From a virus: a DNA stretch of 58,673 nt. The stretch covers positions 1-58,673 of IMG/VR virus record IMGVR_UViG_3300021475_000016; one strand, written 5' to 3'. Below are positions 7,369-54,433 of the stretch, piece after piece; the stretch's first letter is position 1, and each line of letters starts with the position of its first letter. The notes beneath the pieces were generated by a model. The model worked only from the letters and a program-made list of their open reading frames with translations, did no database searches and had not been told where the DNA came from. The translations under genes were made by a program, and so were the position numbers.

Positions 7369-7491
7369 TAGCACTGGCGCTTCGCATCCCGCCTTATACG
7401 GCCTCATTCGCATCATTATCTATACTGTTATACAGACGCTCGCGAACTTATCGCTTCTTAAAAAGACTGTTTAACAGCCTACTTGGAAGAG

Positions 7492-22320: not shown

Positions 22321-22553
22321 CAGGTCGGTCCTTGCACCGGGACATCACCGGTCCCCGTGATAGCCGTGCCAGGAGGCCCGAAGAAGCCCGACAGCATCTC
22401 GTCCCGATCGGCGTCGGAGAGAGCCACGGTGAGACCGTAGGTGGTAAGCCCGAAGCCGGTGCCCTCAAAGACATGCACCACCGGTCGTTGCACGGTCGGT
22501 GGACGAGGCATGGAAATGGGGGTATCAGCGATCCAGTATTTGCTTGCAGTCAT
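22320..22553 (-). CDS. Small tail protein
   Basis: 77 residues (MTASKYWIADTPISMPRPPT). Its stop overlaps the next start (TGATG) and its own start overlaps the upstream gene (ATGA). Contains VALSDADRDEMLSGFFGPPG. No family recognised. Placement suggests a tail assembly or baseplate part. Confidence 0.55.
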   Translation of the reverse strand: MTASKYWIADTPISMPRPPTVQRPVVHVFEGTGFGLTTYGLTVALSDADRDEMLSGFFGPPGTAITGTGDVPVQGPT

Positions 22554-23767: not shown

Positions 23768-23768
23768 C

Positions 23769-33710: not shown

Positions 33711-33721
33711 ACCGACTCCTT

Positions 33722-34165
33722 CTAGTTGATGGTGGCCGTCAAGGCGTTCACGGCGATGGAAAGCGTGATATTGCCAGCCCCCACCGCCTGTGCCGGTTGA
33801 CAGTTCCCGAAGACCAGGAGATTCCCGCCGAGCAGGGCATCCCACAGCCCGAAGAAGGGCAGGTTGGCTCCGCCGATCCAGGCTCCGGAGGACTGCTGGT
33901 AGGTGATGGCCAGCTTGTTGGTCATGCTGTAGCCGGTGGGCGGCTGGGCTCCGAGCGGCACCCAGTGAGCCTGGTCGTTAGGGACGGCCACGCGGGCGTA
34001 GTTGTTCCCGGCCGGTTCGCTGAAATCCCAGGCCGGGGTGCCCTGCCGGATCTGGGATGGCGGGGTGGAGGACAGACCCACGTAGAAGGTAGCCGGAAGG
34101 GTGTAGGCCATCTGGCCGATGGCCCACAGGATGAGCTTCTGATCGAAGTAGGTGGTGAACGGCAT
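33722..34165 (-). CDS. Small beta-rich surface protein, related fold
   Basis: 147 residues with TFYVGLSSTPPSQIRQGTPA, FFGLWDALLGGNLLVFGNCQ and ITLSIAVNALTATIN. The pattern of a short first strand, LSSTPP or LHTGPP, a central FxxLWD(N)A and a final beta strand is shared with the genes at 33312 and 34166. Three tandem related genes suggest duplication. Probably virion surface parts. Confidence 0.6.
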   Translation of the reverse strand: MPFTTYFDQKLILWAIGQMAYTLPATFYVGLSSTPPSQIRQGTPAWDFSEPAGNNYARVAVPNDQAHWVPLGAQPPTGYSMTNKLAITYQQSSGAWIGGANLPFFGLWDALLGGNLLVFGNCQPAQAVGAGNITLSIAVNALTATIN

Positions 34166-36167: not shown

Positions 36168-39100
36168 TCAGCCCGAGGTCTCGGGCGTGGCACCTACTGC
36201 AGGATAAGGATAAAGCTGCGCCTGGGCTCGAACCAGATCCCTGAAAACGAAGACTATGGCGATGGCGCTACCGACGACGGTCATGCCGGTGATGGCCGAC
36301 AGGCGTACTGAGGCGAACTCCTCGACAGTGCCACTGAAGAGGGTGGCGGTGGCCGTCAAGAAGGCGATGGCTGCGATCTCGGTGGTCACGCCGGTCAGGA
36401 CCAGACCGGCCTGAGCGGTCATGGAGACAAAGGCGATCTCTACCGCGATGCCAACGGTGGTGAGACCAGCCTGAGCCGACAGGATGACCGAGGCGATCTC
36501 TTTGACGGTGGGACCCACGATGAGACCGGCCGTGGCCGACAGAGAGATGGTCCCAAACTGGACCAGGAATATCCCGATCACGCTGAGAGAGGCGCTGGCG
36601 GTCATGGCGACCAGACCGACCTGTTGGACCACCACCGTCACGTTCAGGGCGGCAGAGGCCACCAGGGGCACCGCAGCTAGCTCGGTGACCTGCGCCCCCA
36701 CCGTTAGGGTGGTGGAGCCTGACCAGATGACAAACCCGATGATGGCGGTGGAGGTCACCATCCCGGTGGTGGCCGCCATGGCCACAGTGGCCTGCTCGGT
36801 GACCGCAGCCGCCACCGTCAATCCGGCGGTGGCCGTCAAGGAGACTGTGCCCAGCTTGGTGATGGTCCCAGCCGCGCTCAGGCTGCCCGTGGCCGCCATG
36901 GGCACCGCAGCCACCTCGGTGACCAGGGCCGAGACATTGAGGGTGGCCCCACCGGCCAAAACCACGTTGGCAAGCTGGGTGATCGAGGCCCCGATGGTCA
37001 TCCCAGCGCTGGCCGCCAGGGGGACCGAGGCCGTCCTGGAGATGGTGGCGGTCCCCGTGGTCATGGCCGCGCTGGCGGACATCACCACGGCGGCCGCGCT
37101 GACCACCGGGAGGGTGTTGTAGTTGTCCCAGATGACGGTGGTGGTCGAGGCCTCGGCCCCGGTGTTCACCAGCATGGAGGGATAGACATTGGTCATGTCC
37201 AGGTCGGTGGGAGCAGGAGTGGCCTGACTCCAGGCGTTCGTCCAGGCCAAGCCGTCCGGTGAGTAGTCCCAATAGAGCGTGCCACTCGTTTCTCGCACCC
37301 GAAACCACTTATGGACAGCCGGATTGTAAGCACCAGTCCAACGAGGACCGTAAGGCGGATTACCAACTTCGGTTACATTGCCCAGATAAGCCGTAAGAGT
37401 ATTGTTCTGCAGGAACCATCCTGCTCCGGCATCGATGATCCACACTTGCAATGAGGCCAGGTTCTGATTACCGGCGCTGGCCAGTTCAAGCGTGATATTC
37501 GACTCGGTGAGATCGTAACCACCCATGGCCTCCAGGTCAGGATACGAGGCGGTGAGATCAGTGGAGATGTTGACCTGTCCATTGACGATCTGGACCTTGC
37601 CGCCATAGCCGTCGCTTACGTCATCAAACCACCACTTGTTTGGATCAAGCACTCCGCTGTTGAAGTTGTCCTGGAGAGTATTGGCCTTGAACTTGACGTT
37701 CAGGTAGGCATCGGCCTCCAGATCCATCGAGGCCAAGAAGGTGCTCTGAACGGTCATGCTCAGGCCCGAGGTAGCCGACTGCTGTACTCCACCGAGAACT
37801 GGAGGTGGATTATTGACGTTGTCAAAGGCGACAACCGCGTTATGGGTTGAGGGATAGCTCCAGGTACCGGCTTGGAGAAGTAGGTTGAGTTGGGCTACCT
37901 CAGGTATGTCAGGAGTGCTGGCGAAGTTGGTCCAGACAAGCCCATCCGCCGAGGTGTCAAAGTAGATCGTGCCGCCCGTCTCCCGAAACCGTAACCAGGC
38001 ATGCGCCACCGGATCGAAGGTGACGCCTCCTGGTGGACCGCAGGGTACTTGGTTGTTGTTGACATAGACGCTGGAGTAGATCTTCCCTTCGTTGATGTAC
38101 CAGTTAATCTCGTTGTAGAGGGTCGGATTGTGTACCCGGTTGGTCATCATCAAATAGAGTTCCAAGTCACTGCTAACACTTTGGTCTCCAGCGTTGACCA
38201 GATTGAAGAGTATGTGACTCTCGATCAAGGTGTATGGTTGGGCCGAAGCTAATCCCGTGTAATAACCACCGGTCGTCCACTGCACTTGCTGGTTGACCAC
38301 GGTGGGAATATCAGCGCCACCAGCCGCGGGATCCGGACCAGACGGGGCATACATGACCCACTTGGTCGGATCTGGTGGGCCATTCACATTGAAGGCATCC
38401 CTCAGCACCTCCACCTTCGGCCATACGGGTATGACCGTGAGGGCTGCGCTCCCGACCAGAGGGACGGATGCAACCTCGGAGACCTTGCCTCCAATGGCCA
38501 TGCCCGTGGTGGCGGCCAGAGGGACGGAGGCGGTCCTGGAGATGACCGGGGTGCCGATGCTGAGTCCGGCCACCGCCCCGAAGTTCTGCTTCAGGACGAC
38601 GAGGTCGATGTAGTGAACCTCGCCTATGGCGCTCACGCCCGTGTTGTTGCGCCAGTAGACCGCCATCCAGACCGAGCCCGCTGGAGCCACTCCCTGGGCG
38701 GAGGCGATGGTCCAGGTAGAGCCGGTCTGATTGGTGGCGGGTACCCCGTTGAGTGAGCCCACCACGTTCGATCCAGCGTCGAAGAAAACGATCTGGACCA
38801 TGAAGCTGCGGGGCGTGGTGGCCGCCAGCGAGCCCAGGTTGGCGGCGTAGGTATTGCCCGCGATAGCCGGGTAGAGGTTCCAGGCCGTGGAGGCCGAGCC
38901 CCCCGAGGTGGTGGTGGCGGTGATGGCCAGGGAGTGGGTGCCGCTCTGGGCCACGGCAGTGGTGTTGGCCACGGTGGTGTTCTGGCCTTGCCAGGTGCCG
39001 GTGCTGCCGCTCTCGAAGGAGGAGTCGTCGCCCACCAGCACGTTGAGGGCCAAGCCCAGGATGGGGGTGCCGGTGATGGTCTTGGAGGCGACGGTGACGA

Positions 39101-41819
39101 CCATGCTGGCGTTGGCCGCCTCGGCCACGCTGGCGGTCTCGGTCAAGAGGCCACTGATGTTGAGCGTTGCGCCTCCGGCCAGGGTGATGCTGGCCACCTG
39201 CAGGCCGGTGGTGGCCACGAACATGCCTGCCGAAGCGGCCAATGGAGCCGCGGCCACTTCGGTGACCTGAGCACCACTCACCGCCAGACTGGCATTGGCG
39301 CTCAGAGGAGCCGTAGCCACTTCGGTGACCGAGGTATCGATGCTCAACCCCGCCGTGCCCGACTGAGCAACAGTGGCGACCTCTTTGACCGTTGGCGTTA
39401 TGCTCAGTTTGGCTAGCGCACCAGCCGTCTGATAAAGGCTGACATTGTCGATGTAATGGACTTCGCCATTGACACTGACATTGTTGTTATTATTCCAACC
39501 TACTCCCACATAGGCAGTATTCGCCAGAGCAACACCCGATACGGTTACCCTGACCCAGGTATTATCTGGGAGTTGCGGACTGGTATAAGAACCTAGAAAA
39601 CCTCCCGCATTGTTGTAGAAGTTCAATATACAAGAAACAACCCGAGGAATCGTCGCCGCCTGAGAATCCAAACTGGCCGTGTAACTAACCCCAGCAATGG
39701 CTGGATAAAGCGTATGTGATGTCGAAATCTGGCCACCCCCGGTACCGGTGGCGGTGATAGCAAGAGCATGAGTACCACTTGAGGCCACCGCGGTAGTATT
39801 AGCCACGGTGGTACCGGACACATTGATCCAGGATCCAGCGGTGCCGCCCTCGAAGGTCGAGTCGTCGGTGGCCAGCACATTGACTGCGCCCATGCTGACC
39901 AGTACCGAGGCGAAGCTAAAGTCATCCCAGTAAATCGGTAGATTGGCGGATGTGACCGGCCAGTTGATCTGTATTTGAGCATAGGCCGCGGTAGGTGGAG
40001 CGACATCACTAACGGTCAGATATGCCCATGCCGAGGTCGAGATCGGCGTGGATACTCCGTTGGTCGTACTGATCGGAGCCTGAGCCGCCGTCAGCCAAGA
40101 GATCTGTAAAAAGGCGGATGTGAGCGAAGCCGAACCGGCCATGGCCCAGCCGCTGAAGACATAGGCCGAGCCAGGGGTCACCGGGATGGTTGTGGACTGC
40201 TTGGCCTGGACCGTCCCGACAGGCTGAGTGGCGGAGATCTGCAGGGCGTGAGTGCCCGAATGGGCCTGCGAGGTGATGTTGGTGAGCGTCAGCCCCCCGG
40301 TGCCACTCCAGTTACCGGTGGTGCCGCCCTCGAACCCAGACGACTCCGCCGATAGCAGATCGGGAGAACCCGTGATGTCGATGGCCCCGACCGTCAGAGC
40401 GGCCACACCCCCCGGTTGCTGATCAAGGGTGACGGTGTCGATGTAGTGGACTTCGTTGACGGGAATCGCCCCGAAGCCAACAAACAGCACCGCGGCATAG
40501 ACCGCGTTGGGTGGAGCGACCGCTATCGGTGGAGCCCCGAACTGATTCCAGGAGCCCACCTGATCGCCCATGGTGGCGGTGCCGCCCGAGCCTGCGATCA
40601 CCGCCAGACTGGCGTCGTAGAAGACCAGTTGGCATTGCACGTTGCGGGCGTTGGTGGCGGCCATGGCCCAGAAGCTGGCCTTGTAGATCTGGCCGGGGGT
40701 AACGGCGTAGCGCGTCGGCCAAGCGGTGAGCCCCGAGGTGGCCGTTGTCGAGGTGATGGCCAGCGCTCCCGAGCCGGTATGGGCCACGGCCGTGGTCTGG
40801 GCCACATTGCAGTATTGGAGGGGAGCCCAGGAGCCCACGCCGGTCTCGAAGTCCGCATCGGCGGCGGTCAGCAGATGGGTGGGAGCAAAGACGGAGGCCG
40901 TTACGGTCGCCGTCGCCGGGGTTACGGTCATCCCGGCAGTAGCGGCCAAGGAGGTCGCCGCCACCTTGGTGACGGCCCCACCGATGGTCATCCCGGCGGT
41001 CCCTGACATAGGCACGGCCGCGGCCGGAGGCAGGTTGAAGTTGTCGAAGGTGGCGCTCTGGGCCACCAGCCCCGAGCCCGCCTGCGAGTCGAACTGAAAG
41101 GTGGGCTGCAGGTACCGGGGTGGATAGATCCAGGTGCTGTCCGGGACGGCGGCGAAGTTCGACCAGATGTTGCCGTTCGCGCTGTAGTCGAAATAGGTGG
41201 TCCCGGCGTGCTCGCGGATCCGCAACCACTGATAGGTGGCGGCGTTGTAGGGCTGGGGATTCTGATGGACGCCGTCCTGGTCCAGCCAGAAGATCTGGTT
41301 GCCCTGGACGGCCCAGCCAAAGTCGTTGCCGTCCTGGTCGTAGAGCATGAAGGTGACCAGGGCCTGATGGGTGGTGTCAGCCTGGTTCCCGGCGCTGGTC
41401 ATCTGGAACAGGGCGTAGCTCTCGGTCAGGTCGTAGTAGCTCCCGTTGGGCTGGGCCGCGGTGCCGGAGTAGATCCCCCCGCCGACGCCTATGGCGGCAT
41501 TGGCGGGCAGGCTGACGCTCAACGCTCCGCCCGAGTTGGCCACCGTGACCCCGGCACTGGCGTAGGGCAACCACTTGGTGGAATCGGGGGCTCCGGCCGT
41601 GGTGAAGGCGTCGGTGAGCGTGGCCATCTTGCTGCCTGCGACCAGCGTGGTACTGGCCACCTGCAGGGCCGCCGAACCCGCCATGGCCACCGCTGCGATC
41701 TCGGTGACGGTGGCCCCGATGGTCATCCCGGCCGAGGCCGCTAAAGGGGCTATCCCAACGTCTACCGGCGGGCCGTAGTTACGATTGAAGGTGAGGCTGT
41801 AAACACGGCCGCCAGGCAT
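36168..41819 (-). CDS. Giant modular surface protein (1883 residues)
   Basis: Built from three kinds of unit. (a) Short beta repeats of about 30 residues, e.g. PLAASAGMTIGATVTEIAAV, many copies, dense in the last 400 residues. (b) LamG-like units with HKWFRVRETSGTLYWDYSPD or close variants (three seen). (c) Carbohydrate-binding-like units with FEGGTAGSWINVSGTTVANT, THALAITA and GEVHYIDNVSLYQ (four seen). The C-terminus has one hydrophobic run (SAIAIVFVFRDLV). No enzyme motif. It is probably a neck or head fibre that binds host or environmental glycans. The frame is unbroken over 5.6 kb. Confidence 0.7.
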   Translation of the reverse strand: MPGGRVYSLTFNRNYGPPVDVGIAPLAASAGMTIGATVTEIAAVAMAGSAALQVASTTLVAGSKMATLTDAFTTAGAPDSTKWLPYASAGVTVANSGGALSVSLPANAAIGVGGGIYSGTAAQPNGSYYDLTESYALFQMTSAGNQADTTHQALVTFMLYDQDGNDFGWAVQGNQIFWLDQDGVHQNPQPYNAATYQWLRIREHAGTTYFDYSANGNIWSNFAAVPDSTWIYPPRYLQPTFQFDSQAGSGLVAQSATFDNFNLPPAAAVPMSGTAGMTIGGAVTKVAATSLAATAGMTVTPATATVTASVFAPTHLLTAADADFETGVGSWAPLQYCNVAQTTAVAHTGSGALAITSTTATSGLTAWPTRYAVTPGQIYKASFWAMAATNARNVQCQLVFYDASLAVIAGSGGTATMGDQVGSWNQFGAPPIAVAPPNAVYAAVLFVGFGAIPVNEVHYIDTVTLDQQPGGVAALTVGAIDITGSPDLLSAESSGFEGGTTGNWSGTGGLTLTNITSQAHSGTHALQISATQPVGTVQAKQSTTIPVTPGSAYVFSGWAMAGSASLTSAFLQISWLTAAQAPISTTNGVSTPISTSAWAYLTVSDVAPPTAAYAQIQINWPVTSANLPIYWDDFSFASVLVSMGAVNVLATDDSTFEGGTAGSWINVSGTTVANTTAVASSGTHALAITATGTGGGQISTSHTLYPAIAGVSYTASLDSQAATIPRVVSCILNFYNNAGGFLGSYTSPQLPDNTWVRVTVSGVALANTAYVGVGWNNNNNVSVNGEVHYIDNVSLYQTAGALAKLSITPTVKEVATVAQSGTAGLSIDTSVTEVATAPLSANASLAVSGAQVTEVAAAPLAASAGMFVATTGLQVASITLAGGATLNISGLLTETASVAEAANASMVVTVASKTITGTPILGLALNVLVGDDSSFESGSTGTWQGQNTTVANTTAVAQSGTHSLAITATTTSGGSASTAWNLYPAIAGNTYAANLGSLAATTPRSFMVQIVFFDAGSNVVGSLNGVPATNQTGSTWTIASAQGVAPAGSVWMAVYWRNNTGVSAIGEVHYIDLVVLKQNFGAVAGLSIGTPVISRTASVPLAATTGMAIGGKVSEVASVPLVGSAALTVIPVWPKVEVLRDAFNVNGPPDPTKWVMYAPSGPDPAAGGADIPTVVNQQVQWTTGGYYTGLASAQPYTLIESHILFNLVNAGDQSVSSDLELYLMMTNRVHNPTLYNEINWYINEGKIYSSVYVNNNQVPCGPPGGVTFDPVAHAWLRFRETGGTIYFDTSADGLVWTNFASTPDIPEVAQLNLLLQAGTWSYPSTHNAVVAFDNVNNPPPVLGGVQQSATSGLSMTVQSTFLASMDLEADAYLNVKFKANTLQDNFNSGVLDPNKWWFDDVSDGYGGKVQIVNGQVNISTDLTASYPDLEAMGGYDLTESNITLELASAGNQNLASLQVWIIDAGAGWFLQNNTLTAYLGNVTEVGNPPYGPRWTGAYNPAVHKWFRVRETSGTLYWDYSPDGLAWTNAWSQATPAPTDLDMTNVYPSMLVNTGAEASTTTVIWDNYNTLPVVSAAAVVMSASAAMTTGTATISRTASVPLAASAGMTIGASITQLANVVLAGGATLNVSALVTEVAAVPMAATGSLSAAGTITKLGTVSLTATAGLTVAAAVTEQATVAMAATTGMVTSTAIIGFVIWSGSTTLTVGAQVTELAAVPLVASAALNVTVVVQQVGLVAMTASASLSVIGIFLVQFGTISLSATAGLIVGPTVKEIASVILSAQAGLTTVGIAVEIAFVSMTAQAGLVLTGVTTEIAAIAFLTATATLFSGTVEEFASVRLSAITGMTVVGSAIAIVFVFRDLVRAQAQLYPYPAVGATPETSG

Positions 41820-41844
41820 GAGCTAAATCACCACCTACATTCGA

Positions 41845-42186
41845 TCAGACCGGAGTGCCATCGCTGGTGAAGAACAACGTGGCGATGACGGGATAAAGCT
41901 CGGTCACCGCGGCCAGGAGATCCTCGTCGGAGATCTTGGACTGGTCGATGGTGCCATCCCCGTTGTCCACCATGTCGGCAAATCCCGGAGCGGCACAAAT
42001 GGCCCGCAGGAAGGCGCTCAGAGGAGCCGGGTCGTCCTTCAGCAAGGCGCTGGACAGGGCCTGGACATCGGAGGCCGATCCGGCCTCCTGATAGACCTCC
42101 GACGCCTTCTGAAACAGGCAGGAGCGACAACGCCGCCCGGTGAAATCCGAGTCCTCGTTGAGCAGGGCTTGGGTCTGGTAGCTCAT
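41845..42186 (-). CDS. Hypothetical protein with a short Cys motif
   Basis: 113 residues from ATG 42186 with TAGGAG seven bases upstream (MSYQTQALLNEDSDFTGRRC). After RRCRSCLFQKAS the chain is helical and acidic (SSALLKDDPAPLSAFLRAIC; NGDGTIDQSKISDEDLL, which resembles an EF-hand-like loop). It lies between the fibre array and the giant protein. Family unknown. Confidence 0.6.
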   Translation of the reverse strand: MSYQTQALLNEDSDFTGRRCRSCLFQKASEVYQEAGSASDVQALSSALLKDDPAPLSAFLRAICAAPGFADMVDNGDGTIDQSKISDEDLLAAVTELYPVIATLFFTSDGTPV

Positions 42187-42194
42187 GGGCTCTC

Positions 42195-42755
42195 CTAGCC
42201 AGTACCGATGTATGAGATCTCTAGTCGAGTATTCGACTGACCCACCTGGGCCGCCAATCCAGTGGGGTTGTAAGCCTGCGCGTTGATCTTGTCCCCGGCT
42301 GCACAAAACACATCATTCCAGGTGCGCCAGGACAACCCGCCGCCAGTAAGAGAAGTGATGCTGTTCTCATTGGTGATACCGGTGCTGTTTTGAAAGATAC
42401 TGCCCTGGATGTACTGCCCGGTGGCATTGCAGTTGCCATTACAGGTGGCCTGGACCCAATACCAGCCTGCTATCGGAACGGTGAAACCGTAAGTGGGAGA
42501 GACAGTGTACAGACCAAAGTTGTCAGCCAGTTGAGTGTCATAGGGAATAACGGTCTGTGACGTGGGCATGGTGTAAGCGGCGTTGCGATATATGACAGCG
42601 TGTAGCCAATCACGCGCTCTGCCCCACTGGCCACCGGCCACACTGCTTCTAGCCACCCATACTTCGCCCCATGGATCGACGTAAGACTGAACAACGTTCG
42701 AGGCCGTCCAAGGAGGAGGGAAACCATTGACGGGAACACCCGTGTTAATGCTCAT
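42195..42755 (-). CDS. Fibre-tip paralogue 7 (last of the array)
   Basis: 186 residues. N-terminal signature VVQSYVDPWGEVWVARSSVA then GGQWGRARDWLHAVIYRNAA (about 20-60) is shared by the whole array. The C-terminal part is a jelly-roll-like strand series (YGFTVPIAGWYWVQATCNGN; DKINAQAYN) ending RLEISYIGTG. The GWYxV pattern recalls C1q/TNF-like tips of fibres. It is the least conserved copy in the anchor. Coupled by ATGA. Confidence 0.7.
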   Translation of the reverse strand: MSINTGVPVNGFPPPWTASNVVQSYVDPWGEVWVARSSVAGGQWGRARDWLHAVIYRNAAYTMPTSQTVIPYDTQLADNFGLYTVSPTYGFTVPIAGWYWVQATCNGNCNATGQYIQGSIFQNSTGITNENSITSLTGGGLSWRTWNDVFCAAGDKINAQAYNPTGLAAQVGQSNTRLEISYIGTG

Positions 42756-43357
42756 CCGAAGAACAATCCCATGAAGGCGCAGGAGAAGGTATTTATAGAC
42801 GGACCAGTATAGACATTCAAGCTGGCAACACTGGACGAATAATACGCTTGAAACGTGTCATTAGCCGAGCCAAGACCCATGTACTGCGTCCGGGCCGAAC
42901 AGTTACCGGCTGAGGTTTGATTCATGATCATGTTGTCCTGGGTGACGCCCGAACCGTTCTGGAAGATCTGGCAGCCGACATAGTTGGGGCTGGTCGCTGA
43001 TTGCAAGACCCAGTGGAAGGCGAAGCGCCACCAACTGGCCGGGTATACCGCACCTGAAACACTGCCCGCCACTGGCAACACAAACGCGTAGGTGGGGCTG
43101 CCAACCCAGATGCCATACGGGTCACGAATAACGGTGTCAGCCGGAAAAACGGAGTTAGCCGTGGGAGCAACAAGAGCCGCATTACGGTACACCGAGGCGT
43201 GGAGGACATCGCGAGCCTTCCTCCAGTTGCCTCCGTTAACGCCAGGTTTTGCTATCCAAAGCTCTCTGTAGAGGTCCAGGAAGCTCTGGATGCCACCCGT
43301 GGTCACCGGGGGTGGCAGGATGTTGAGTTCAGCGCCGGTATAAGCCTGGATGGTCAT
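42752..43357 (-). CDS. Fibre-tip paralogue 6
   Basis: 201 residues. Anchor PPPVTTGGIQSFLDLYRELW then GGNWRKARDVLHASVYRNAA; tip with YAFVLPVAGSVSGAVYPASW, an insertion before the second strand compared with its sisters. It ends CAFMGLFFG rather than the usual GTG end, so it may have diverged in the last strand. Coupled by ATGA to the next copy. Confidence 0.7.
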   Translation of the reverse strand: MTIQAYTGAELNILPPPVTTGGIQSFLDLYRELWIAKPGVNGGNWRKARDVLHASVYRNAALVAPTANSVFPADTVIRDPYGIWVGSPTYAFVLPVAGSVSGAVYPASWWRFAFHWVLQSATSPNYVGCQIFQNGSGVTQDNMIMNQTSAGNCSARTQYMGLGSANDTFQAYYSSSVASLNVYTGPSINTFSCAFMGLFFG

Positions 43358-43923
43358 CCGGTACCCAGATAACTGACTTCAAGATGACAGGGAGGAGGAC
43401 TCCCACTGACGATGCATGGGTAACCCTGTGGCTGGTAAGCATGGAGGTTGACAAGATCTCCTATGCTTAAATACATAAGCGCTTGAGTCCGGGCACACAG
43501 ACCACCGGAGGCACGGCTGGTGAAATAGTTGTCGCTGGACCAGTTGGTGGCGTTGTTCTGCATGAGGTTCATCTGGATATAAGTACCCGCTGCCGCTACC
43601 GAGACTTCCAGGTAGGAAAAGACACGATAAAAGCCTGGGATCCAGGCCGTAAACTGGTAGTTAGATCCAGCAGAAAATCCCCAGGTGTCATGCCAAGGGG
43701 TATCGAAAACGATAACAGCCGACGCGGTGGGCAAGTTGTAGGCAGCAGCACGGTAGGTATGGAAATGCACCACATCTCGGGCCTTGCGCCAAGCTCCACC
43801 GTAGACACCGTTCTTGGCGATCCAAACCTCGCCGGTCATGGCGTCGGTAAAGCTCTGGATGCCCGATCCCGAGGTGACCGGCGGCGGCAGGTTATCGATG
43901 AGGGCGTAGGTCTGGATGGTCAT
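43354..43923 (-). CDS. Fibre-tip paralogue 5
   Basis: 189 residues from ATG 43923, where TGATG links it to copy 4; the longer frame to 43980 is rejected. Anchor LPPPVTSGSGIQSFTDAMTG then GGAWRKARDVVHFHTYRAAA, with tip FTAWIPGFYRVFSYLEVSVA and end HLEVSYLGTG. The tip differs almost entirely from copies 4 and 6 while the anchor is close. Confidence 0.72.
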   Translation of the reverse strand: MTIQTYALIDNLPPPVTSGSGIQSFTDAMTGEVWIAKNGVYGGAWRKARDVVHFHTYRAAAYNLPTASAVIVFDTPWHDTWGFSAGSNYQFTAWIPGFYRVFSYLEVSVAAAGTYIQMNLMQNNATNWSSDNYFTSRASGGLCARTQALMYLSIGDLVNLHAYQPQGYPCIVSGSPPPCHLEVSYLGTG

Positions 43924-44471
43924 CAGCCCGTCCCCCGATACTGCAAGGTGGCGTAGGTCCAGTAAACCAACGGCGTACAAGCCAATGAAACGCTGGCCTC
44001 AGCCACCGCGTTCACGGTGTCTCCAGCGTTGAAAGCAAGCTGCTGGATGCAGGTGGCCGAGATGGCGGCCGCCGCACCAGAATGCGCTCGCATAATCCCT
44101 TGCAAGGCCGCGTTGACGTTGATGCGAGCCGAACACCATTGTCCCGTAGCGGTGGCCGTGACGGCTAGCTGAAAGACGACATCGTACCAGCCTGCTACCG
44201 GTACGGTGAACGCCGCCGCAGAGTAGAGGCCATAGTCGTCCTTGGTCATAGTATCCAGCGTAAGAACAGCGGCACCAGCAATGGAAATGGCCGCATTACG
44301 AAACCACTTGGCGTAGATGGCGTCGCGTGCCCGTTTCCATCTCCCACCATTGACACCGTTCTTGGCCACCCATACGTCACCCCAAACATCGGTGAACGAT
44401 TGGATGGTGGCACCCGAGGTAACGGGAGCCGGAAGATTATCAGGAATGGCATAGGCAGGAACAAGGCTCAT
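43923..44471 (-). CDS. Fibre-tip paralogue 4
   Basis: 182 residues (MSLVPAYAIPDNLPAPVTSG). Anchor IQSFTDVWGDVWVAKNGVNG then RWKRARDAIYAKWFRNAA; tip FTVPVAGWYDVVFQLAVTAT, GDTVNAVAEASVSL and YWTYATLQYRGTG. The anchor is nearly the same as in copy 3, also at DNA level, so these two are the youngest pair. Confidence 0.75.
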   Translation of the reverse strand: MSLVPAYAIPDNLPAPVTSGATIQSFTDVWGDVWVAKNGVNGGRWKRARDAIYAKWFRNAAISIAGAAVLTLDTMTKDDYGLYSAAAFTVPVAGWYDVVFQLAVTATATGQWCSARINVNAALQGIMRAHSGAAAAISATCIQQLAFNAGDTVNAVAEASVSLACTPLVYWTYATLQYRGTG

Positions 44472-44475
44472 GACA

Positions 44476-45042
44476 TCACCCCGTTCCGTAGTACTCGACG
44501 GTGGCGTAAGTCCAGTAACCCGGAGCGCCTACTCCTGCTGCCAACGCAGTACTAGCGTTGTCGTAGAACTGTATGTAATCTCCCACATGGAGAACAAACT
44601 GCTGGCTTATGACACTGCTAAAGGCGTTAACCGAAGAGGCATAAGACTGAGAAACACCCATCAGCATACCATTGATGAAAAACCGAGGTTGTACCCACTG
44701 ACCGCTAGCAGTAGCATTAGCCGTAACCTGCCAGAGAATGTCATACAGACCTGAAATAGGCGGATACGCAGCACTACCGGCAGGATTGGTGTACATGCTG
44801 TAGGGATCTCGGGTAGTGCTATCAAGTGGGACCGCGGCCTGCCCCGCTGGCAACGTGAAGGCAGCATTGCGATACCACTTGCCGTAGAGGGTGTCCCGCG
44901 CCCGTTTCCAAGCTCCTCCATAGACCCCGTTCTTGGCTATCCACACATCGCCCCACACGTCGGTGAATGACTGCACGGTGGTACCAGAGATAACCGGAGG
45001 CGGAAGACTGTCGGGGATAGCGTAAGTGGGGATTAGGCTCAT
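44476..45042 (-). CDS. Fibre-tip paralogue 3
   Basis: 188 residues from ATG 45042 (MSLIPTYAIPDSLPPPVISG), with TGATG overlap to copy 2. Anchor VQSFTDVWGDVWIAKNGVYG then AWKRARDTLYGKWYRNAA; tip YPPISGLYDILWQVTANATA, GDYIQFYDNASTAL and GYWTYATVEYYGTG. Four bases separate it from copy 4. Confidence 0.75.
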   Translation of the reverse strand: MSLIPTYAIPDSLPPPVISGTTVQSFTDVWGDVWIAKNGVYGGAWKRARDTLYGKWYRNAAFTLPAGQAAVPLDSTTRDPYSMYTNPAGSAAYPPISGLYDILWQVTANATASGQWVQPRFFINGMLMGVSQSYASSVNAFSSVISQQFVLHVGDYIQFYDNASTALAAGVGAPGYWTYATVEYYGTG

Positions 45043-45635
45043 CAGCCCGTCCCCCGGTATCGAAGGATGGAATAGGTCCAGTACCCTGGACCGAAGCTCG
45101 GCGGGGTACCCGAGCCCACAATGGCCGCTATGGTGGCGCTGCAGTAGTCCCAAGGCTGCACGTAGTCATTGACATTGCAGAGGCCCAAGTACGTTGTTAT
45201 GGCTGAGAAACTGGTGGCCAGCGTGGTATGCACCCTGGCCACGCTCATCAAAACACCGTTGTTATAGATGCGAGCATCCATCTGCTGACCGACCGCAGTG
45301 GCAGTGCCTCCCACTTGATGGACAGCTTCGTACCAGCCTGCTACCGGGATGATGTAGGCACCCACTCCGCTTTGGAAGCCGGGATTGTACAGACTATAGT
45401 TGTCCGAGATCGTGCCATCCATAAGCGTGGTGGCACCGCCAGCCGTCAAGTTCAGAGCAGCGACGCGATAGACGTGGCTGAAGAGGACATCCTTGGCTCG
45501 TCTCCAGGCTCCTCCATTGACCCCGACCAGGGCCACCCACACGTCGCCGTAGATGTCGGTGTACGACTGGATGCCGCCGTATGTGAGCGGAGCCGGAAGG
45601 TTGTCCGGAGGGGCGTAGGTGGGAATGAGCGACAT
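45042..45635 (-). CDS. Fibre-tip paralogue 2
   Basis: 197 residues from ATG 45635 (MSLIPTYAPPDNLPAPLTYG). Anchor IQSYTDIYGDVWVALVGVNG then AWRRAKDVLFSHVYRVAA; tip YIIPVAGWYEAVHQVGGTAT, NDYVQPWDYCSATI and YWTYSILRYRGTG. It starts inside the stop of the full-length fibre gene (TGATG), so its translation is likely coupled to it. Confidence 0.75.
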   Translation of the reverse strand: MSLIPTYAPPDNLPAPLTYGGIQSYTDIYGDVWVALVGVNGGAWRRAKDVLFSHVYRVAALNLTAGGATTLMDGTISDNYSLYNPGFQSGVGAYIIPVAGWYEAVHQVGGTATAVGQQMDARIYNNGVLMSVARVHTTLATSFSAITTYLGLCNVNDYVQPWDYCSATIAAIVGSGTPPSFGPGYWTYSILRYRGTG

Positions 45636-47248
45636 CAGCCCGATCCCATATAGTGAAAGCGGCCACAAGTAGACTGGTTACCAGTGCTTCCTGTGTAGGC
45701 CGCCGTGGTTTGAAGGACAACTTGACCCTGTCCACCCGCGGCCAAGTAGAGAGAGGCATGAGTTCGAGCCGCCGTGGTCTCGACTGCCCTCGCAAACGTA
45801 GACTGATATGCGGATACGCCCGCACCAATGAAGATGTTAAACAAGTTACCAGCAGCCGCAGGCGTGGCCTCATACTGACCATAAATGTCGTACCACCCCG
45901 CTACAGGCGCAGTCCAGCTAGGAGAAACCCAGAGGCCGTAGTCGTCCTTAATAACAGTGTCAAAGGCTATTGGAGTATTAGCATTGGAAGTAGTCCAGGC
46001 AGCATTGCGATAAACGGCGGAGTGCAAGACATCACGGGCTCGCCTCCAGTTCCCACCGTTAACACCGTTGAGAGCCACCCACACATCGCCCAACGAATCG
46101 GTGAAGCTCTGAATGGTGGCACCAGTGGTAACCGCAGCCGGAAGAGTGGGCGTCTTAGAATCGACATACTGCTTGGTGGCGGTGTTAGAGGGGTTGAGTG
46201 GCAGAGGGGCATTACCCACGCCCATGACCACCACGTTGATGGAGTTGGGCATGTTCTGAGCCACTGTGATCGAGATGTGATTGACATCCACGATGTTGAT
46301 CTGAGTCATCACAAGCTGGTTGGTGACGGCGTCCCAGATCTCGACAAAGACGTTGGTGGTATTGAGGTTGTGGGCGATGCTGTAAGGCGAGCCCGCGGCC
46401 GTGGGCGAAGCAATGGTCTGCATGAAGGCGAAGTTGTACGCCTGGGTCAGTTGCTGCTGGACGTACTGGACGGTGGCCAGGTTCGAGGGCAACACCATGG
46501 TGGGGGCCACCGAGGTGCCCATGATGACCACGTTGACCGGGTTGGGGGCGTTCTGGGTCACCGACACCGAGATGTTGTTGGCGTCCACGATGGCCACGTT
46601 GGCCATGATGCGCTGATTGGTCACCGTGTCCCAGATATCCACGATCAGGCTGGTGGTGTTCAGGTTGTGGTTGACCGTGTAAGGCGACCCCGCCGTGATC
46701 AGAGAGGCCAGGGGACGGCTGACCAGTAGCTGGGTGTTCGCGGCACGGGCATAAGGCCGCACGTCGGTGATGAAGGAGTTGAGGATGGCCGGAACATTGG
46801 ATCCGACCAGGATCTGGGCCAAGACCAAGGTGCTAGATGGAACGGCCGGAGCTACCTGCGAACCAGTGACAGCGGCGGTGCCCTGGATGGGGACGATGAC
46901 GAAGTCGCTGCGGCCTCCACCGATGACGAAGTCGTCGCGAACCTGAGCCACGATCAGATCGATACGGGCGGTGCCCACCCCCGGCGCGACGGCGATGGGC
47001 ACGTTGACCACGGTGTCGGACCAGATGGTGTAGGCCCCCTGGTTGGCGATGTCGGTGCCGGGGATCAAAGCTCGCCCTGCAGCCACGTCCACCGACATAT
47101 TGGTCCCGGCGGCCCGTTGGGTCACCTGGAGGGCTCCAGAGCCACTCAGAAGGGCTGGGCCGGGTCCCAGGGCGTCCTGGATGAAGAACCGGTCCAGGTT
47201 GGCCGGATAGGTGCCCTCCTGCATCCACAGCGGCGGATACAGCGCCAT
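45635..47248 (-). CDS. Full-length fibre with array-type tip (copy 1)
   Basis: 537 residues. The N-terminus (MALYPPLWMQEGTYPANLDR) and the domain to about 150 are typical of actinophage minor tail or fibre proteins. Two internal repeats of about 80 residues follow (SPYTVNHNLNTTSLIVDIWD; SPYSIAHNLNTTNVFVEIWD), then the array module (about 365-537): IQSFTDSLGDVWVALNGVNG, NWRRARDVLHSAVYRNAA, WTAPVAGWYDIYGQYEATPA and end FHYMGSG. Likely the main receptor-binding fibre, and the template from which the six shorter copies arose. Confidence 0.78.
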   Translation of the reverse strand: MALYPPLWMQEGTYPANLDRFFIQDALGPGPALLSGSGALQVTQRAAGTNMSVDVAAGRALIPGTDIANQGAYTIWSDTVVNVPIAVAPGVGTARIDLIVAQVRDDFVIGGGRSDFVIVPIQGTAAVTGSQVAPAVPSSTLVLAQILVGSNVPAILNSFITDVRPYARAANTQLLVSRPLASLITAGSPYTVNHNLNTTSLIVDIWDTVTNQRIMANVAIVDANNISVSVTQNAPNPVNVVIMGTSVAPTMVLPSNLATVQYVQQQLTQAYNFAFMQTIASPTAAGSPYSIAHNLNTTNVFVEIWDAVTNQLVMTQINIVDVNHISITVAQNMPNSINVVVMGVGNAPLPLNPSNTATKQYVDSKTPTLPAAVTTGATIQSFTDSLGDVWVALNGVNGGNWRRARDVLHSAVYRNAAWTTSNANTPIAFDTVIKDDYGLWVSPSWTAPVAGWYDIYGQYEATPAAAGNLFNIFIGAGVSAYQSTFARAVETTAARTHASLYLAAGGQGQVVLQTTAAYTGSTGNQSTCGRFHYMGSG

Positions 47249-47251
47249 GGG

Positions 47252-47635
47252 CTAGCTCAGGGTCTTTGTATAGCTACCCGACGCAATCGAGAACGTATCA
47301 CCTGCATTCACCGTTTTTGATGCACTTAGAGCGCCAAACCAGCGTCTCACGGGTGTGGCTGTACTATCGTACTCATCCACTCCGGTGACGGTGCAGGCGG
47401 GCATGTTGGTGTAGGTGAGGGCCACGTTGGAGGCGATCGAGCCACCCGAGGGAGCCGCGAAGGTGATGGTCTGCCGGGCGTAGGAGCCGCCGGTCACCTC
47501 GGTACCGGGAGCAGCCGCGGTGCCGGTGGCGGTCACCAGGGCGACCTTGACCGGGGCGGTGACCGCCGGGTATGCCGCTTGCCCCGAGGAGGCCGCCAGC
47601 AGGGCATTGGCTTCGACGGTAACGAGGTTGGCCAT
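47252..47635 (-). CDS. Small beta-rich surface protein
   Basis: 127 residues (MANLVTVEANALLAASSGQA). GGSYARQTITFAAPSGGSIA, ALTYTNMPACTVTGVDEYDS and a final FSIASGSYTKTLS mark a short fibre- or capsid-associated family common in actinophages. It is next to the fibre gene with a 3-base gap. Confidence 0.65.
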   Translation of the reverse strand: MANLVTVEANALLAASSGQAAYPAVTAPVKVALVTATGTAAAPGTEVTGGSYARQTITFAAPSGGSIASNVALTYTNMPACTVTGVDEYDSTATPVRRWFGALSASKTVNAGDTFSIASGSYTKTLS

Positions 47636-47959
47636 TTATGCCTCCTGGGTCCCTGGGATGGAAAACTCCGGCGTCTCGATGCTGTGCTGCTCGAACAGGG
47701 CCTGCAGGTTGGCCTCGGGCCGGTTCTGGACGAACTCCGGGATGGAGAGCCCGGCCTGGGTGGCCGCAGCCACGTCAGTAGCGCAAATCTCGCAACCATC
47801 AGTGGAGCAGCAATCAAGGTGTCGGCTAATCGAGAGATCAGTCGGCTCCCCGGTCACCGGATGGTTGAAAGCGACGTACTGAACATGATGTGGATCAGAG
47901 TCCGTCTGACCACAAATATCACACGTTCTGGTTTCTGGATCTGGAGGGGTATCAGTCAT
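47636..47959 (-). CDS. Zinc-finger protein
   Basis: 107 residues. CDICGQTDSDPHHVQYVAF and HLDCCSTDGCEICATD together offer Cys4-His sets for one or two zinc sites in the first 60 residues; the rest is helical. The arrangement resembles small phage proteins that carry HNH-like finger pairs but no HNH residues are seen. Function unknown. Confidence 0.65.
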   Translation of the reverse strand: MTDTPPDPETRTCDICGQTDSDPHHVQYVAFNHPVTGEPTDLSISRHLDCCSTDGCEICATDVAAATQAGLSIPEFVQNRPEANLQALFEQHSIETPEFSIPGTQEA

Positions 47960-47978
47960 GATCTCAATCCTGTTCTGG

Positions 47979-48176
47979 TCAATACTCTCGGCCTGGTTGT
48001 CCGGTTATGATGATGCTTCCTACCGTGTTCTCCACCACTGGACTATCGGCGGTAGGAAGGGCGTATAAGACACTCCCTTGCCGTATGAGATCAGGATCGA
48101 TGGTGGTGTCTACGACCGGTGCTCCCACTTCGGGATAGGGATAGAAAGGGGCTCCCGGACGGACCGTCTCGATCAT
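47979..48176 (-). CDS. Hypothetical small protein
   Basis: 65 residues (MIETVRPGAPFYPYPEVGAP). Pro/Tyr-rich N-terminus and a beta-like end (VVENTVGSIIITGQPGREY). The start overlaps the end of the next gene upstream (ATGT/TGA). The motif FYPYPEVGAP is similar to AQLYPYPAVGATPETSG at the end of the giant protein. No known family. Confidence 0.55.
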   Translation of the reverse strand: MIETVRPGAPFYPYPEVGAPVVDTTIDPDLIRQGSVLYALPTADSPVVENTVGSIIITGQPGREY

Positions 48177-50728: not shown

Positions 50729-50764
50729 TCACCACTTCAGCGGTCTGGACCCCGGCGCGACAGG
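50729..50764 (-). promoter_or_regulatory. 36-bp repeated element, copy E
   Basis: CCTGTC, 11 bases, CAGACC, GCTGAAGTGGTGA; 27 bases before the start at 50701, which has its own GAGGGAG site. The element therefore is not needed as the ribosome site here, supporting a transcriptional role. Confidence 0.7.
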
Positions 50765-50766
50765 CT

Positions 50767-51084
50767 CTAGGGCTCGATGTCGGTCTCGTCCACTCCTACC
50801 ACCGAATAGGTCGGGGTCCCGCTGGAGATCAGCTTGACCACGCAGGTGTTCTGCGGAGCCTGGAAGTTGGCCCGAGTGTCGGAGCCCCCCACCACCGAGG
50901 CGACCACGTAGCAGTCGTCCCCGCCCACGGTGGGGTTGGTGTTATTGGTGGTCCAGTAGATCTCGCTGGCCCCGCCCCGGTTGATGACCTGGACCCGAGC
51001 GTAGGACCGGCTCAGGGTGACGGTGTCCACCGTGGCGGCGGTCAGGGTGCCGTGGTAGGCCCGGTTCTTGTTGACGGTAGCCAT
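50767..51084 (-). CDS. Small beta-rich capsid-associated protein
   Basis: 105 residues (MATVNKNRAYHGTLTAATVD). Alternating strands (TVTLSRSYARVQVINRGGAS; YWTTNNTNPTVGGDDCYVVA) in the style of actinophage decoration proteins. Copy F of the 36-bp element touches the start codon and provides GAAGGGG. Confidence 0.6.
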   Translation of the reverse strand: MATVNKNRAYHGTLTAATVDTVTLSRSYARVQVINRGGASEIYWTTNNTNPTVGGDDCYVVASVVGGSDTRANFQAPQNTCVVKLISSGTPTYSVVGVDETDIEP

Positions 51085-51085
51085 C

Positions 51086-51121
51086 TCACCCCTTCGGCGC
51101 TCTGAGGCGGCCAGGGACAGT
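51086..51121 (-). promoter_or_regulatory. 36-bp repeated element, copy F
   Basis: ACTGTC, 11 bases, CAGAGC, GCCGAAGGGGTGA, followed by one base and the ATG at 51084. Its 5' end meets the stop of the gene at 51121. Confidence 0.75.
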
Positions 51122-51903
51122 CAGGAAGTGGGCGTGGTGATGGGCCGGGGGTCGCGGCCGTTGGGGAGCCAGGGCGGCAGGCAGATGTAGCCGAAGTACT
51201 GCGAGTAGTGGTGGTTGAGCTTGGGGATGTACTGGCCGCAGTTGATGCAGGTGCCAGGACCGGGATCCTTGATGCCCGCCAGCGGGTCGAGCCCGTCCTG
51301 GACCAGGATGCCGTTGCGCTCGGTGTAGTGAAGTTTGCCCGGAGGCGGGACGTTGATGTTGTCGAAGATGACGGTGGTGGTCTGGGTCGAGTCCGGATCG
51401 TCAACGCCCGCCACCCACGATGGCATCACCGAAGTCCAGTCAAATACGTCTGGCTCGCTATACGCCAGGTTCCAGGTCAGGCCATCAGGGGAGTACTCCC
51501 AATATGTCACGCCTCCAGTCTCACGAATCCGAAACCACTTATGAACAGCCGGATCATAGATGGTAGTCAAATGGATGCCGTCAGCAGAAGGACTGGAGTA
51601 GACATACAGGGTGCCATCGGCTATCTGCCAGGACACCCCGTTGTTACCGTTCTCTGCATCCGCCAGGAAGCACACGATGGTCAAGGCCGGGATGGACAGG
51701 TCACCGGGGCTCACCAACTCATAGAGCAAGGACGACTCGGTCAGATCGTAGGCAAGCTGAGTGGTCAGCGCCCCAAAGCTCTGATCAGCCGGGATATCGA
51801 GTTGCCCCTTGATGACGCTAATCCCCGCAGCCACCACCCATACCGTGAGGTCGAGCTTGTCGCTGTCGAAGTTGTCGATCAGCGTGTCGAGCTTGGCCGT
51901 CAT
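51121..51903 (-). CDS. LamG-like protein with a zinc-ribbon tail
   Basis: 260 residues. Residues 1-190 repeat the concanavalin-like unit of the giant protein (YDLTESSLLYELVSPGDLSI; VHKWFRIRETGGVTYWEYSP then DGLTW). The tail (DGLDPLAGIKDPGPGTCINC then HHYSQYFGYICL) is almost the same as the whole next gene. It probably decorates the capsid and binds polysaccharide. Coupled to the next gene upstream by ATGA. Confidence 0.68.
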   Translation of the reverse strand: MTAKLDTLIDNFDSDKLDLTVWVVAAGISVIKGQLDIPADQSFGALTTQLAYDLTESSLLYELVSPGDLSIPALTIVCFLADAENGNNGVSWQIADGTLYVYSSPSADGIHLTTIYDPAVHKWFRIRETGGVTYWEYSPDGLTWNLAYSEPDVFDWTSVMPSWVAGVDDPDSTQTTTVIFDNINVPPPGKLHYTERNGILVQDGLDPLAGIKDPGPGTCINCGQYIPKLNHHYSQYFGYICLPPWLPNGRDPRPITTPTS

Positions 51904-52157
51904 CGGTGCTTGGAGGCAGCCGCGCCCTTCTGGTTGGCGGGTAGCACCGACTGGTTGGGATCGATAAAGGGGATCTGAGCGGCGGACAGGCAGCTATAAC
52001 GCACGTTCTCACTGCGGTGGTAGTGCGTGCCAAGCTGGACATTGGTCTGCCCACAGTTGATGCAGGTGCCGATCGGATCCTTGGATGACAGGGTGGGATC
52101 GAGACCGACCTGAACCATCTGCCCGTTGATGACAGCGAAGGTTGCTCCAGTGGCCAT
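51900..52157 (-). CDS. Small zinc-binding protein, paralogue of the previous tail
   Basis: 85 residues (MATGATFAVINGQMVQVGLD). LSSKDPIGTCINCGQTNVQL, HYHRSENVRYSCL: a CxxC pair plus His and Cys that match the end of the 51121 protein. It starts just after a strong hairpin and lacks a clear ribosome site. The pair arose by duplication or module capture. Confidence 0.65.
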   Translation of the reverse strand: MATGATFAVINGQMVQVGLDPTLSSKDPIGTCINCGQTNVQLGTHYHRSENVRYSCLSAAQIPFIDPNQSVLPANQKGAAASKHR

Positions 52158-52173
52158 GACCGAGTGTAGACGC

Positions 52174-52207
52174 GACGATGCCCACCCCGGAAGAGGTGGG
52201 CATCGTC
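52174..52207 (-). terminator. Strong 13-bp hairpin
   Basis: GACGATGCCCACC and GGTGGGCATCGTC pair perfectly around an 8-base loop, downstream of the exported-protein gene. This is the most stable stem seen in the window and ends that gene's transcript, or limits read-through. Confidence 0.7.
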
Positions 52208-52220
52208 AGTGAATAGCTGG

Positions 52221-52691
52221 TTACGGGGTCGAGAACACGTAGGTGTTGCTGGCCACGTTGGGAGCGATGTTGAGAGACCGGAAGACGCCACGGGCACCGG
52301 TCCAACCCCTGGTACCTCCGGTGATGGCACCGGCCTGACCGAAACCGATACGGGGGATGACAGCGTTGCCGCGCAGTTGCTGCTGAAGCAGCGGCGGGGC
52401 GTTGGTGGTCAGACGCCAGTTGCACCGGGCGTTGCCGAGAGGACCGACCAAGCAGAGTTCGCTGACGCTGGCAAAGAGACGGAAGCCAGGCGGGACCACG
52501 CTGGGCTGATACAGGTTGAAGGTCAGGGCCTCAAGACCAGGGGCCAGGAAGGTGGCCGAGGTCTCCACGCTGGTGGCGGTGATGACGGTGGGAGGGGCAG
52601 CCGAAGCCGCCTGAGCCGTGACCAAACCGGCGGTAGTTCCGGCCATGGCGAGAGCGGCGAGCGCGATAGCCCCCCGTTTGAAGATGTTCAT
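52221..52691 (-). CDS. Exported protein with a signal peptide
   Basis: 156 residues. MNIFKRGAIALAALAMAGTT followed by AGLVTAQAASAAPP is a textbook Sec signal: basic start, hydrophobic core, and A-x-A near 30-32. The mature part is beta-like with one Cys pair (ELCLVGPLGNARCNWRL). It resembles actinobacterial secreted proteins more than virion parts. It is set between a tandem repeat with a long leader and a strong hairpin, so it looks like an independently controlled cargo gene. Confidence 0.75.
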   Translation of the reverse strand: MNIFKRGAIALAALAMAGTTAGLVTAQAASAAPPTVITATSVETSATFLAPGLEALTFNLYQPSVVPPGFRLFASVSELCLVGPLGNARCNWRLTTNAPPLLQQQLRGNAVIPRIGFGQAGAITGGTRGWTGARGVFRSLNIAPNVASNTYVFSTP

Positions 52692-53440: not shown

Positions 53441-54433
53441 TTAGCCCTTGAGAACGGTGGTGATACCCCGAGGGTTGAGGATGGCCATCGACACCATCTC
53501 ATCGAACACCCAGCCCTTCCAGAAGGCCTCGACGTTGTGGTTCTCCTCCACATCGAGCGAGTACAGGACCGGGAACACACCCAGGAAGTCAGGGTTGGGA
53601 AGCAGGAACATCTGGCCCGAGGGGACCATGATGGAACGCTGGAACTGGAACTCACCGAAGCTCTGGATCTGCTCCCCGGCCACGATACGGTCCTTGAAGG
53701 CCCAGCCGGTGGTGTTGATGTCCCAGCGGAAGAAGTCCCGGTAGTCAAAGGGGTTGACCAACATGCGCCCGGCAGGCAGTTCGTGCATGTCGGACTGGGC
53801 CACCGCGGTGTACATGGACTGCGGGGTGAAGTACCCCGAAGCCTCGTACACGGTGTGGTTGGGGGTGACCACATGGTCCGGCCGGGAGGCGTAGTCGGTG
53901 AGGGCGGCCTGGATGATCACCATCATCCGGCTGTCCTCTTGCTTCATGATGGCCTGCTTGGTCTCGTCCTGGGCCTGCTCGACTGCATTGATGCGGAGGT
54001 AGAACAGGTCCTCCTTGCGGATGGCCGGACGGGAGGCGATACGCCAGAACCGGATGGGCAGGCGCTTGCCTTCGAAGGGAGTGACCCGGACCTCGCCTTC
54101 GGTGCCACTCATGAGGTAGGCCTGGCCGAGGTCGTCCCACACGTCGTACTCCACCGGGGTGCCCGGCGTGACCGGGTCCTCGATCAGCACGTTGCGGACG
54201 ATGCCCTGGTAGCGCAGCTTTAGCTGGATAGGGCCGACCATGCCCACGCCCAGGCGGCGGATGCCGTTGACCTCGTCCTGGAGGATCAACGAGAGCTTGC
54301 GGACCTTGGCCTCATGGGTCAGGGAGGGAACGTTGCCGTCCCCACCGCGGCGCTTGAGGATCTCCTGGACGTAATCGTCCGACTTCTTGGCTCGCTTCGG
54401 CGCTAGCCCCGCTGCGGTGGCAACCATGCTCAT
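53441..54433 (-). CDS. Major capsid protein
   Basis: 330 residues (MSMVATAAGLAPKRAKKSDD). The sequence shows long helices with basic N-terminus, an acidic E-loop-like stretch (EYDVWDDLGQAYLMSGTEGE) and the conserved tail PNPDFLGVFPVLYSLDVEEN then AFWKGWVFDEMVSMAILNPR, consistent with HK97-fold capsid proteins of actinophages (the family resemblance is from memory). The start has AAGGAG. Size is typical. The place after the scaffold-type gene supports it. Confidence 0.78.
   Translation of the reverse strand: MSMVATAAGLAPKRAKKSDDYVQEILKRRGGDGNVPSLTHEAKVRKLSLILQDEVNGIRRLGVGMVGPIQLKLRYQGIVRNVLIEDPVTPGTPVEYDVWDDLGQAYLMSGTEGEVRVTPFEGKRLPIRFWRIASRPAIRKEDLFYLRINAVEQAQDETKQAIMKQEDSRMMVIIQAALTDYASRPDHVVTPNHTVYEASGYFTPQSMYTAVAQSDMHELPAGRMLVNPFDYRDFFRWDINTTGWAFKDRIVAGEQIQSFGEFQFQRSIMVPSGQMFLLPNPDFLGVFPVLYSLDVEENHNVEAFWKGWVFDEMVSMAILNPRGITTVLKG

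Follow-up and report, generated by a model that had tools for sequence, protein, structure and literature searches.

The 58,673-nt viral sequence of IMG/VR record IMGVR_UViG_3300021475_000016 (the window, meaning this entire stretch) carries on its minus strand a row of seven related genes at positions 42195–47248, in which a full-length fibre gene is followed by six short genes, here called g1 to g6. An original prediction made from the letters alone had described a tandem array of a fibre and six anchor-bearing genes; the array is real, and its coordinates and coupling were confirmed, while the interpretation offered with it is supported in part. The fibre gene (45635..47248) encodes 537 amino acids (aa): an N-terminal domain (aa 1–175; 46724..47248), two mid repeats (about 176–365), an anchor (about 369–417) and a predicted C1q-like head. 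The six free, coupled products of 182–201 aa are those of g1 (P0006; 45042..45635; 197 aa), g2 (P0005; 44476..45042; 188 aa), g3 (P0004; 43923..44471; 182 aa), g4 (P0003; 43354..43923; 189 aa), g5 (P0002; 42752..43357; 201 aa, with an additional 10-residue insert) and g6 (P0001; 42195..42755; 186 aa), the final copy of the row, which is not coupled to the next gene. Each consists of an 11–13-residue lead, a 48–50-residue anchor and a tip of 121–140 residues, the fibre tip having 120. The predicted joints could be read exactly as described, with TGATG at fibre/g1, g1/g2 and g3/g4, ATGA at g4/g5 and g5/g6, and a single four-base gap at g2/g3. "Most" tips, as predicted, end in YxGTG (5 of 7); the fibre ends in YMGSG, and g5 lacks the motif and ends in LFFG.

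The seven genes are paralogues, as had been proposed, with mutual similarity far beyond chance: g3 as a query retrieved the other six copies with E values from 6.8e-58 to 7.6e-20. Their anchors are also alike at the DNA level, a 45-nt block being repeated in all seven and g2 and g3 sharing 77% identity over 183 nt. Over the 21 pairs in the row, protein identity was 49–78% (mean 61%) for anchors and 23–42% (mean 31%) for tips. Over all pairs of 79 modules, each module being an anchor with its tip, from the window and other contigs, the means were 55% and 29%. Thus, the heads of one row are about as divergent as the heads of different phages.

We modelled g3 with AlphaFold2 as a single chain, using an alignment of 78 family members, and obtained a confident structure (predicted local distance difference test score, pLDDT, 95.3). 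Compared by Foldseek and VIA-align, the model resembled C1q heads over 120–132 aligned residues (Caprin-2, Z 18.7; C1QL3, 18.6; C1q, 16.8) and the central spike knob of phage phi812 (PDB 9eul; Z 17.0, 128 residues). In a viral structure library, a C1q-domain protein of Synechococcus phage S-SRM01 ranked first, ahead of many from uncultured phages, and stand-alone C1q-domain proteins of 156–235 aa were among the best matches there. By sequence, the family profile matched C1q with an E value of 2.3e-9, and 14 of the 78 family members matched Pfam C1q individually at E ≤0.01; none of the window's seven modules reached Pfam's own C1q cut-off. The C1q-like fold of g3 covers about residues 50–182, and the anchor ahead of it is predicted to form a short beta-hairpin (strands 24–27 and 33–36) and a short helix (48–51). 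The module is therefore predicted to adopt one C1q/TNF-like jelly-roll fold, assigned to copies other than g3 by sequence profile. The prediction that each gene carries a different beta-rich tip holds for sequence divergence but not for fold, as the family profile and the confident g3 model speak against different folds per tip. The differences between tips would then lie mostly in the surface and loops, and the heads, by analogy with C1q, probably trimerize.

What is unusual about this row is that a protein motif shared by interchangeable cassettes carries the ribosome-binding site. We compared 78 complete modules (11 others, being duplicates, truncated or internal, were left out, and g2, with its 4-nt gap, was counted as uncoupled). 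In 44 of them the stop region contained an ATG that begins an open frame of 60 codons or more, whatever the next gene (33 TGATG or TAATG, 9 ATGA and 2 at +6); between successive module genes, 28 of 32 joints overlapped (TGATG at 21, ATGA at 7). The glycine of the YxG motif was encoded by GGG or GGA in 37 of 41 coupled ends versus 9 of 25 uncoupled ends (p = 5e-6), and in 16/18 versus 9/24 when one module per contig was taken (p = 0.001); taken together, GGG and GGA account for 37% of all glycines in the coupled and 34% in the uncoupled genes. Pairing with the anti-Shine–Dalgarno sequence was stronger in coupled ends than in synonymous controls (−6.26 versus −4.40 kcal/mol, p = 3e-10). No such excess was seen in uncoupled ends (−3.44 versus −3.60 kcal/mol, p = 0.29), which have a strong site right after the last codon instead (−7.36 versus −1.25 kcal/mol). 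The amino acid motif G[TS][GS] was not commoner in coupled ends (36/44 versus 24/34, p = 0.29), so that the codons alone differ. A joint signature, GGR[AT]CNGGCTGATG, which spans the end of the coding sequence, the stop, the overlapping start and the ribosome-binding site, was present in 25 of 44 coupled and none of 34 uncoupled ends. It occurs three times in the entire window, both strands having been scanned, and every time at a joint: fibre/g1 (45633..45646), g1/g2 (45040..45053) and g3/g4 (43921..43934), all on the minus strand. Six contigs added later, too few to test, had GGG or GGA in 4/4 coupled and 3/5 uncoupled glycine ends, with one more uncoupled end lacking the glycine. Synonymous codon choice at the YxGTG end thus creates a ribosome-binding site where the following gene is coupled; no such codon choice is seen where the following gene has a site of its own.

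The module recurs in other viral contigs. IMG/VR was scanned with two alignments, A2 and A3, which gave 53 and 51 loci. Excluding L019, the contig near-identical to the window, and five duplicate loci, the A2 scan comprised 48 distinct contigs including the window; the A3 scan added six (L181, a duplicate of L180, was dropped), for a total of 54 distinct contigs, window included. An anchor profile identified 89 modules in 53 sources (duplicates and the window included). In every complete case the module is the C-terminal end of its protein, except in L038, where one protein has two modules. It is found on an adaptor domain, on mid repeats, on collagen-like repeats, on a stem that we take to be LamG-like and that matches the window's 1883-aa protein, or free. 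There are 29 free copies in 13 contigs, with 11–14 aa ahead of the anchor (the second copy in L066, with 27 aa, was left out); their number ranges from 1 to 6 per contig, and the majority of distinct contigs have a single module only. Free copies lie downstream of stemmed genes, with the exception of L023, in which the first gene of the row is a free copy, preceded by a 556-aa protein. At 7396–7440 of L023, joint DNA has been retained past an upstream stop, such that the upstream protein ends in FMG and the ribosome-binding stretch is now non-coding. The near-identical contigs L025 and L026, which have different sample numbers, end 29 nt apart right after a free head, where L021 continues into a second fibre; either differences between strains at the row or the assembly process could account for this. 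In a genome collection, none of 40 pattern matches was confirmed as a relative, and in a phage collection a module query (L039) found no match at E 0.01 and a whole-fibre query matched through the N-terminal part only.

Directly 3′ of the last module, 16 of the 48 distinct contigs (44 of which have at least 350 nt downstream) carry a gene we call MSYQ. In the window it lies at 41845..42183 on the minus strand and encodes 112 aa with no Pfam or PHROG match. Together with the row and the 1883-aa protein, which has a CBM_4_9 match, it lies in an island (36168..48172, minus strand). The closest phage to the window, contig 3300036791_001038, has a 96% identical capsid protein, and the alignable flanks of the island share 69–81% DNA identity. 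In the same gene interval, this phage encodes a 2127-aa protein, stemmed fibres of 299 and 389 aa, two free heads, two MSYQ genes and a 535-aa protein, and thus has four modules in an arrangement unlike that of the window. The nearest relative of g6 is its last head, and that of g4 is the head of its 389-aa fibre. The content and order of the array are therefore variable among relatives. The MSYQ gene, duplicated in this phage, perhaps encodes an assembly partner of the heads. We fetched 80 capsid-related loci and examined the 33 over 15 kb for the island flanks. Eight loci, two of which (L110 and L111) look alike, have both flanking genes (48173 and 35221), with about 10–500 nt between the matched stretches, and the 12-kb island is missing. 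Among the 27 records searched out of the 80 fetched, the module was present in just one, the closest phage.

The simplest view of a stemless protein that has the anchor of the fibre itself is that it serves as an additional head of the virion. We consider it reasonably probable, on balance, that the row encodes expressed, exchangeable receptor-binding heads of a polyvalent contractile-tailed phage, the free heads being displayed by means of the anchor. Receptor binding by the heads is suggested by analogy with other phage C1q-domain proteins.

A tail location of the fibre is in keeping with its N-terminal domain, which is present only on the fibre and not on the free copies. The model of aa 1–175 (pLDDT 79) resembled the phi812 baseplate (Z 11.0) and the tail fibres of Haloferax HFTV1 (9.5) and cyanophage A-1(L) (8.1); matches to Bordetella phage major tropism determinant (MTD; Z 7.5) and the lactococcal p2 receptor-binding protein (7.1) fall below the tool's warning level for common arrangements. 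Foldseek alone found no match to this model with E <0.001. At the sequence level, fibre residues 5–190 are similar (E 2e-9) to a minor tail protein from Streptomyces phage OnionKnight. The domain thus probably attaches the fibre to the tail. The phage itself appears to be a contractile-tailed, distant relative of the subfamily Ceeclamvirinae: tail sheath and baseplate wedge genes are present, and the capsid gene shares 76% DNA identity over 297 nt with that of Mycobacterium phage ScoobyDoobyDoo, a member of this subfamily. The original prediction correctly placed the row in the head-neck interval, distant from the baseplate genes (15712–18368); it lies between the major capsid gene (53441–54433) and the sheath gene (29137–30612). 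This position, together with the head labels of N-terminal PHROG matches (the fibre matches ten PHROG families, annotated as head in four cases, tail in two and unknown in four), would fit a fibre of the head or neck rather than the tail. Given the structural likeness to tail and baseplate attachment domains and the match to a minor tail protein, we regard a head or neck fibre as unlikely, though it is the alternative that survives best. As a separate observation, PHROG 240 (head protein) is matched by three genes of the window (47252–47635, 33722–34165 and 33312–33845), the first of which also matches Pfam Gp80, a fibre protein of podophage GP4.

The free copies could instead be stored rather than displayed, as a reservoir of tips that matter only once recombined onto the fibre. 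In favour of such a store, conserved DNA blocks flank the variable heads, the closest tips are found in free and stem-bearing genes of different phages, and a RecA family gene is present in 3 of 4 records searched. However, a silent store needs no starts or joints, yet 28 of 32 joints overlap, the length of the lead is fixed and the ribosome-binding codons are retained. In addition, synonymous divergence between paralogues is near saturation (mean 0.68 for anchors and 0.73 for tips), such that any exchange onto the fibre is not recent. The ratio of nonsynonymous to synonymous change (dN/dS), which had been suggested as a check, was below 1 in every computable paralogue pair; the genes are under purifying selection, with frames, starts and couplings preserved. 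A pure store therefore seems to us improbable. Rapid switching is not supported. Contig 3300021478_000015 (157 kb) is at least 99.9% identical to window positions 8286–58673 outside two patches, and its array is the same. The row is thus old and under selection, does not switch quickly, and differs in content only over longer times. The two divergent patches, at about 50739–52408 and 36292–37197 (88% or unalignable, and 15 differences, respectively), contain the genes of a 260-aa protein and the 1883-aa protein, which have PHROG 14065 in common and are perhaps faster-changing adhesins. Elsewhere in the window, at 22550–24965, two adjacent genes, each encoding about 400 aa, both match PHROG 2786 and differ in their endolysin-like C-termini; their first parts are about 75% identical in DNA.

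Over such longer times, heads were probably exchanged by homologous recombination between phages at the anchor and joint blocks. For 39 of 46 modules in multi-module contigs, the nearest neighbour of the tip was in another contig. In the six pairs among the fibre and g1–g3, the synonymous difference was 0.40–0.60 in anchors versus 0.61–0.79 in tips, a hint of homogenized anchors. A RecT-type recombinase was found in none of the 4 records. One candidate breakpoint, L056/L057, with tips 98% and anchors 79% identical, was rejected, as the DNA before the anchor is also similar and only a small divergent patch remains. We also rejected a diversity-generating retroelement and an invertible tail-fibre switch: reverse transcriptase (PF00078), resolvase (PF00239) and integrase (PF00589) were each absent from the 4 records, which may be incomplete, with positive controls, and inverted repeats were scattered and imperfect.

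C1q itself is a heterotrimer, and the free copies might likewise not be alternative specificities but chains that must pair with one another or with the fibre tip. A precedent exists in mycobacteriophage Mysterious, whose gp35, gp36 and gp37 are small hairpin-plus-sandwich proteins that form a heterotrimer displayed on the baseplate and held by hairpin arms (PMC13252515). These adjacent small genes encode a hairpin arm (about residues 12–37) and a beta-sandwich core (52–169), comparable to our anchor and head, and their three counterparts in Acadian are overlapping genes as well. In Mysterious, however, the genes are three, a fixed number, whereas free copies vary from 1 to 6 among our contigs and most contigs have a single module, which argues against any fixed set of partners. 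We judge fixed heterotrimers slightly less probable still than a store. That the heads are soluble products, released at lysis or active in assembly as decoys, adhesins or fibre chaperones, is suggested by their lack of a stem and by the stand-alone C1q-domain proteins of similar length (156–235 aa) in the structure library, but is very improbable, as all free heads keep the anchor common to the virion fibre and the many single-module fibres with no free partner in their locus indicate that fibres can do without a free form as chaperone.

Several observations weigh against displayed, exchangeable heads. Three PHROG families on the fibre N-terminus carry the labels head and packaging or head protein. 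g4, although coupled by ATGA, has no pairing excess, and overlapping genes commonly have a ribosome-binding site inside the 3′ end of the gene upstream. The array in contig 3300021478_000015 does not show any difference, and we found no clear recombination breakpoint within an anchor. Best tip matches within the same contig were seen for 7 of 46 modules versus a shuffled mean of 1.7 (anchors, 5 of 46 versus 1.8), which suggests that some heads arose by local duplication, as in g1–g3 and L037. Finally, no profile homology to Mysterious-type proteins was detected (Acadian counterparts, hhalign probability 0.1%).

With displayed heads as the preferred reading, the row may work as follows. A cassette would consist of the anchor, a short beta-hairpin and helix, and a head of C1q fold. 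One head is fused to the long fibre, which is probably fixed to the tail by its N-terminal domain, and the other six would be made as free proteins by translational coupling down the row. Like C1q heads, the free heads would probably form trimers, and the common anchor would probably dock them onto the fibre, the baseplate or one another, giving the virion several specificities. As the YxGTG end of most coupled cassettes would provide the ribosome-binding site of the next, an inserted cassette would keep the row translated. The row would gain new heads on an evolutionary timescale, probably when homologous recombination joins DNA of different phages within the conserved anchor and joint blocks; the RecA family gene and the conserved blocks that flank variable heads offer a route for such exchange. 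A bolder form of this proposal is a plug-in system, in which any anchored C1q head with a YxGTG/TGATG end would be translated anywhere in the row and co-assemble into combinatorial homo- or heterotrimers, and the host range would grow by adding cassettes rather than by replacing the fibre. This form we offer only tentatively, and doubt that it holds in full.

Each of these components has known counterparts. C1q-domain receptor-binding proteins of phages, with strong variation in natural populations, have been described in marine metaviromic islands (PMC3909814); they share with our heads the C1q-like fold, proposed receptor binding and natural variation, but no tandem row is evident in that account, from which the word tandem is absent, whereas the window copies are stemless and have a common anchor and coupled joints. 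The phi812 central spike knob (PDB 9eul) likewise has a jelly-roll fold and is carried by a virion protein of a contractile tail, but it belongs to one large spike protein, whereas the window heads are free cassettes. The branched tailspike complexes of Ackermannviridae combine several receptor binders with exchangeable recognition and recombination between neighbours (PMC11414711); these are complete tailspikes with conserved N-terminal domains, in contrast to the anchor and head alone in the window. In polymorphic toxin loci, variable C-terminal modules also occur as solo cassettes beside the full-length gene (PMC3482391). The window array has this arrangement of standalone C-terminal modules, but its cassettes are binding heads rather than toxins, with their own start, coupling and a constant lead. 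Among the titles and abstract starts listed by the literature searches, we found no account of tandem free C1q heads or of an end motif that doubles as a ribosome-binding site. Known kinds of element (C1q heads, multiple receptor binders and cassette exchange) are thus combined here in a form not met among the titles and abstract starts listed.

Other phages have multiple receptor binders, yet each binder in the cases compared has its own body and attachment domain. Here, the extra binders are pared down to an anchor and a head, and the joints would sustain translation whichever head is inserted. The joint signature and the fixed lead of 11–14 residues provide a simple key by which rows of this kind could be spotted in phages that lack annotation. 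Were the free heads displayed, the row would amount to a naturally compact solution to polyvalent host recognition, with copy number (1–6 free heads) as a testable dial of host range, and heads could probably be added or exchanged to alter the range of hosts.

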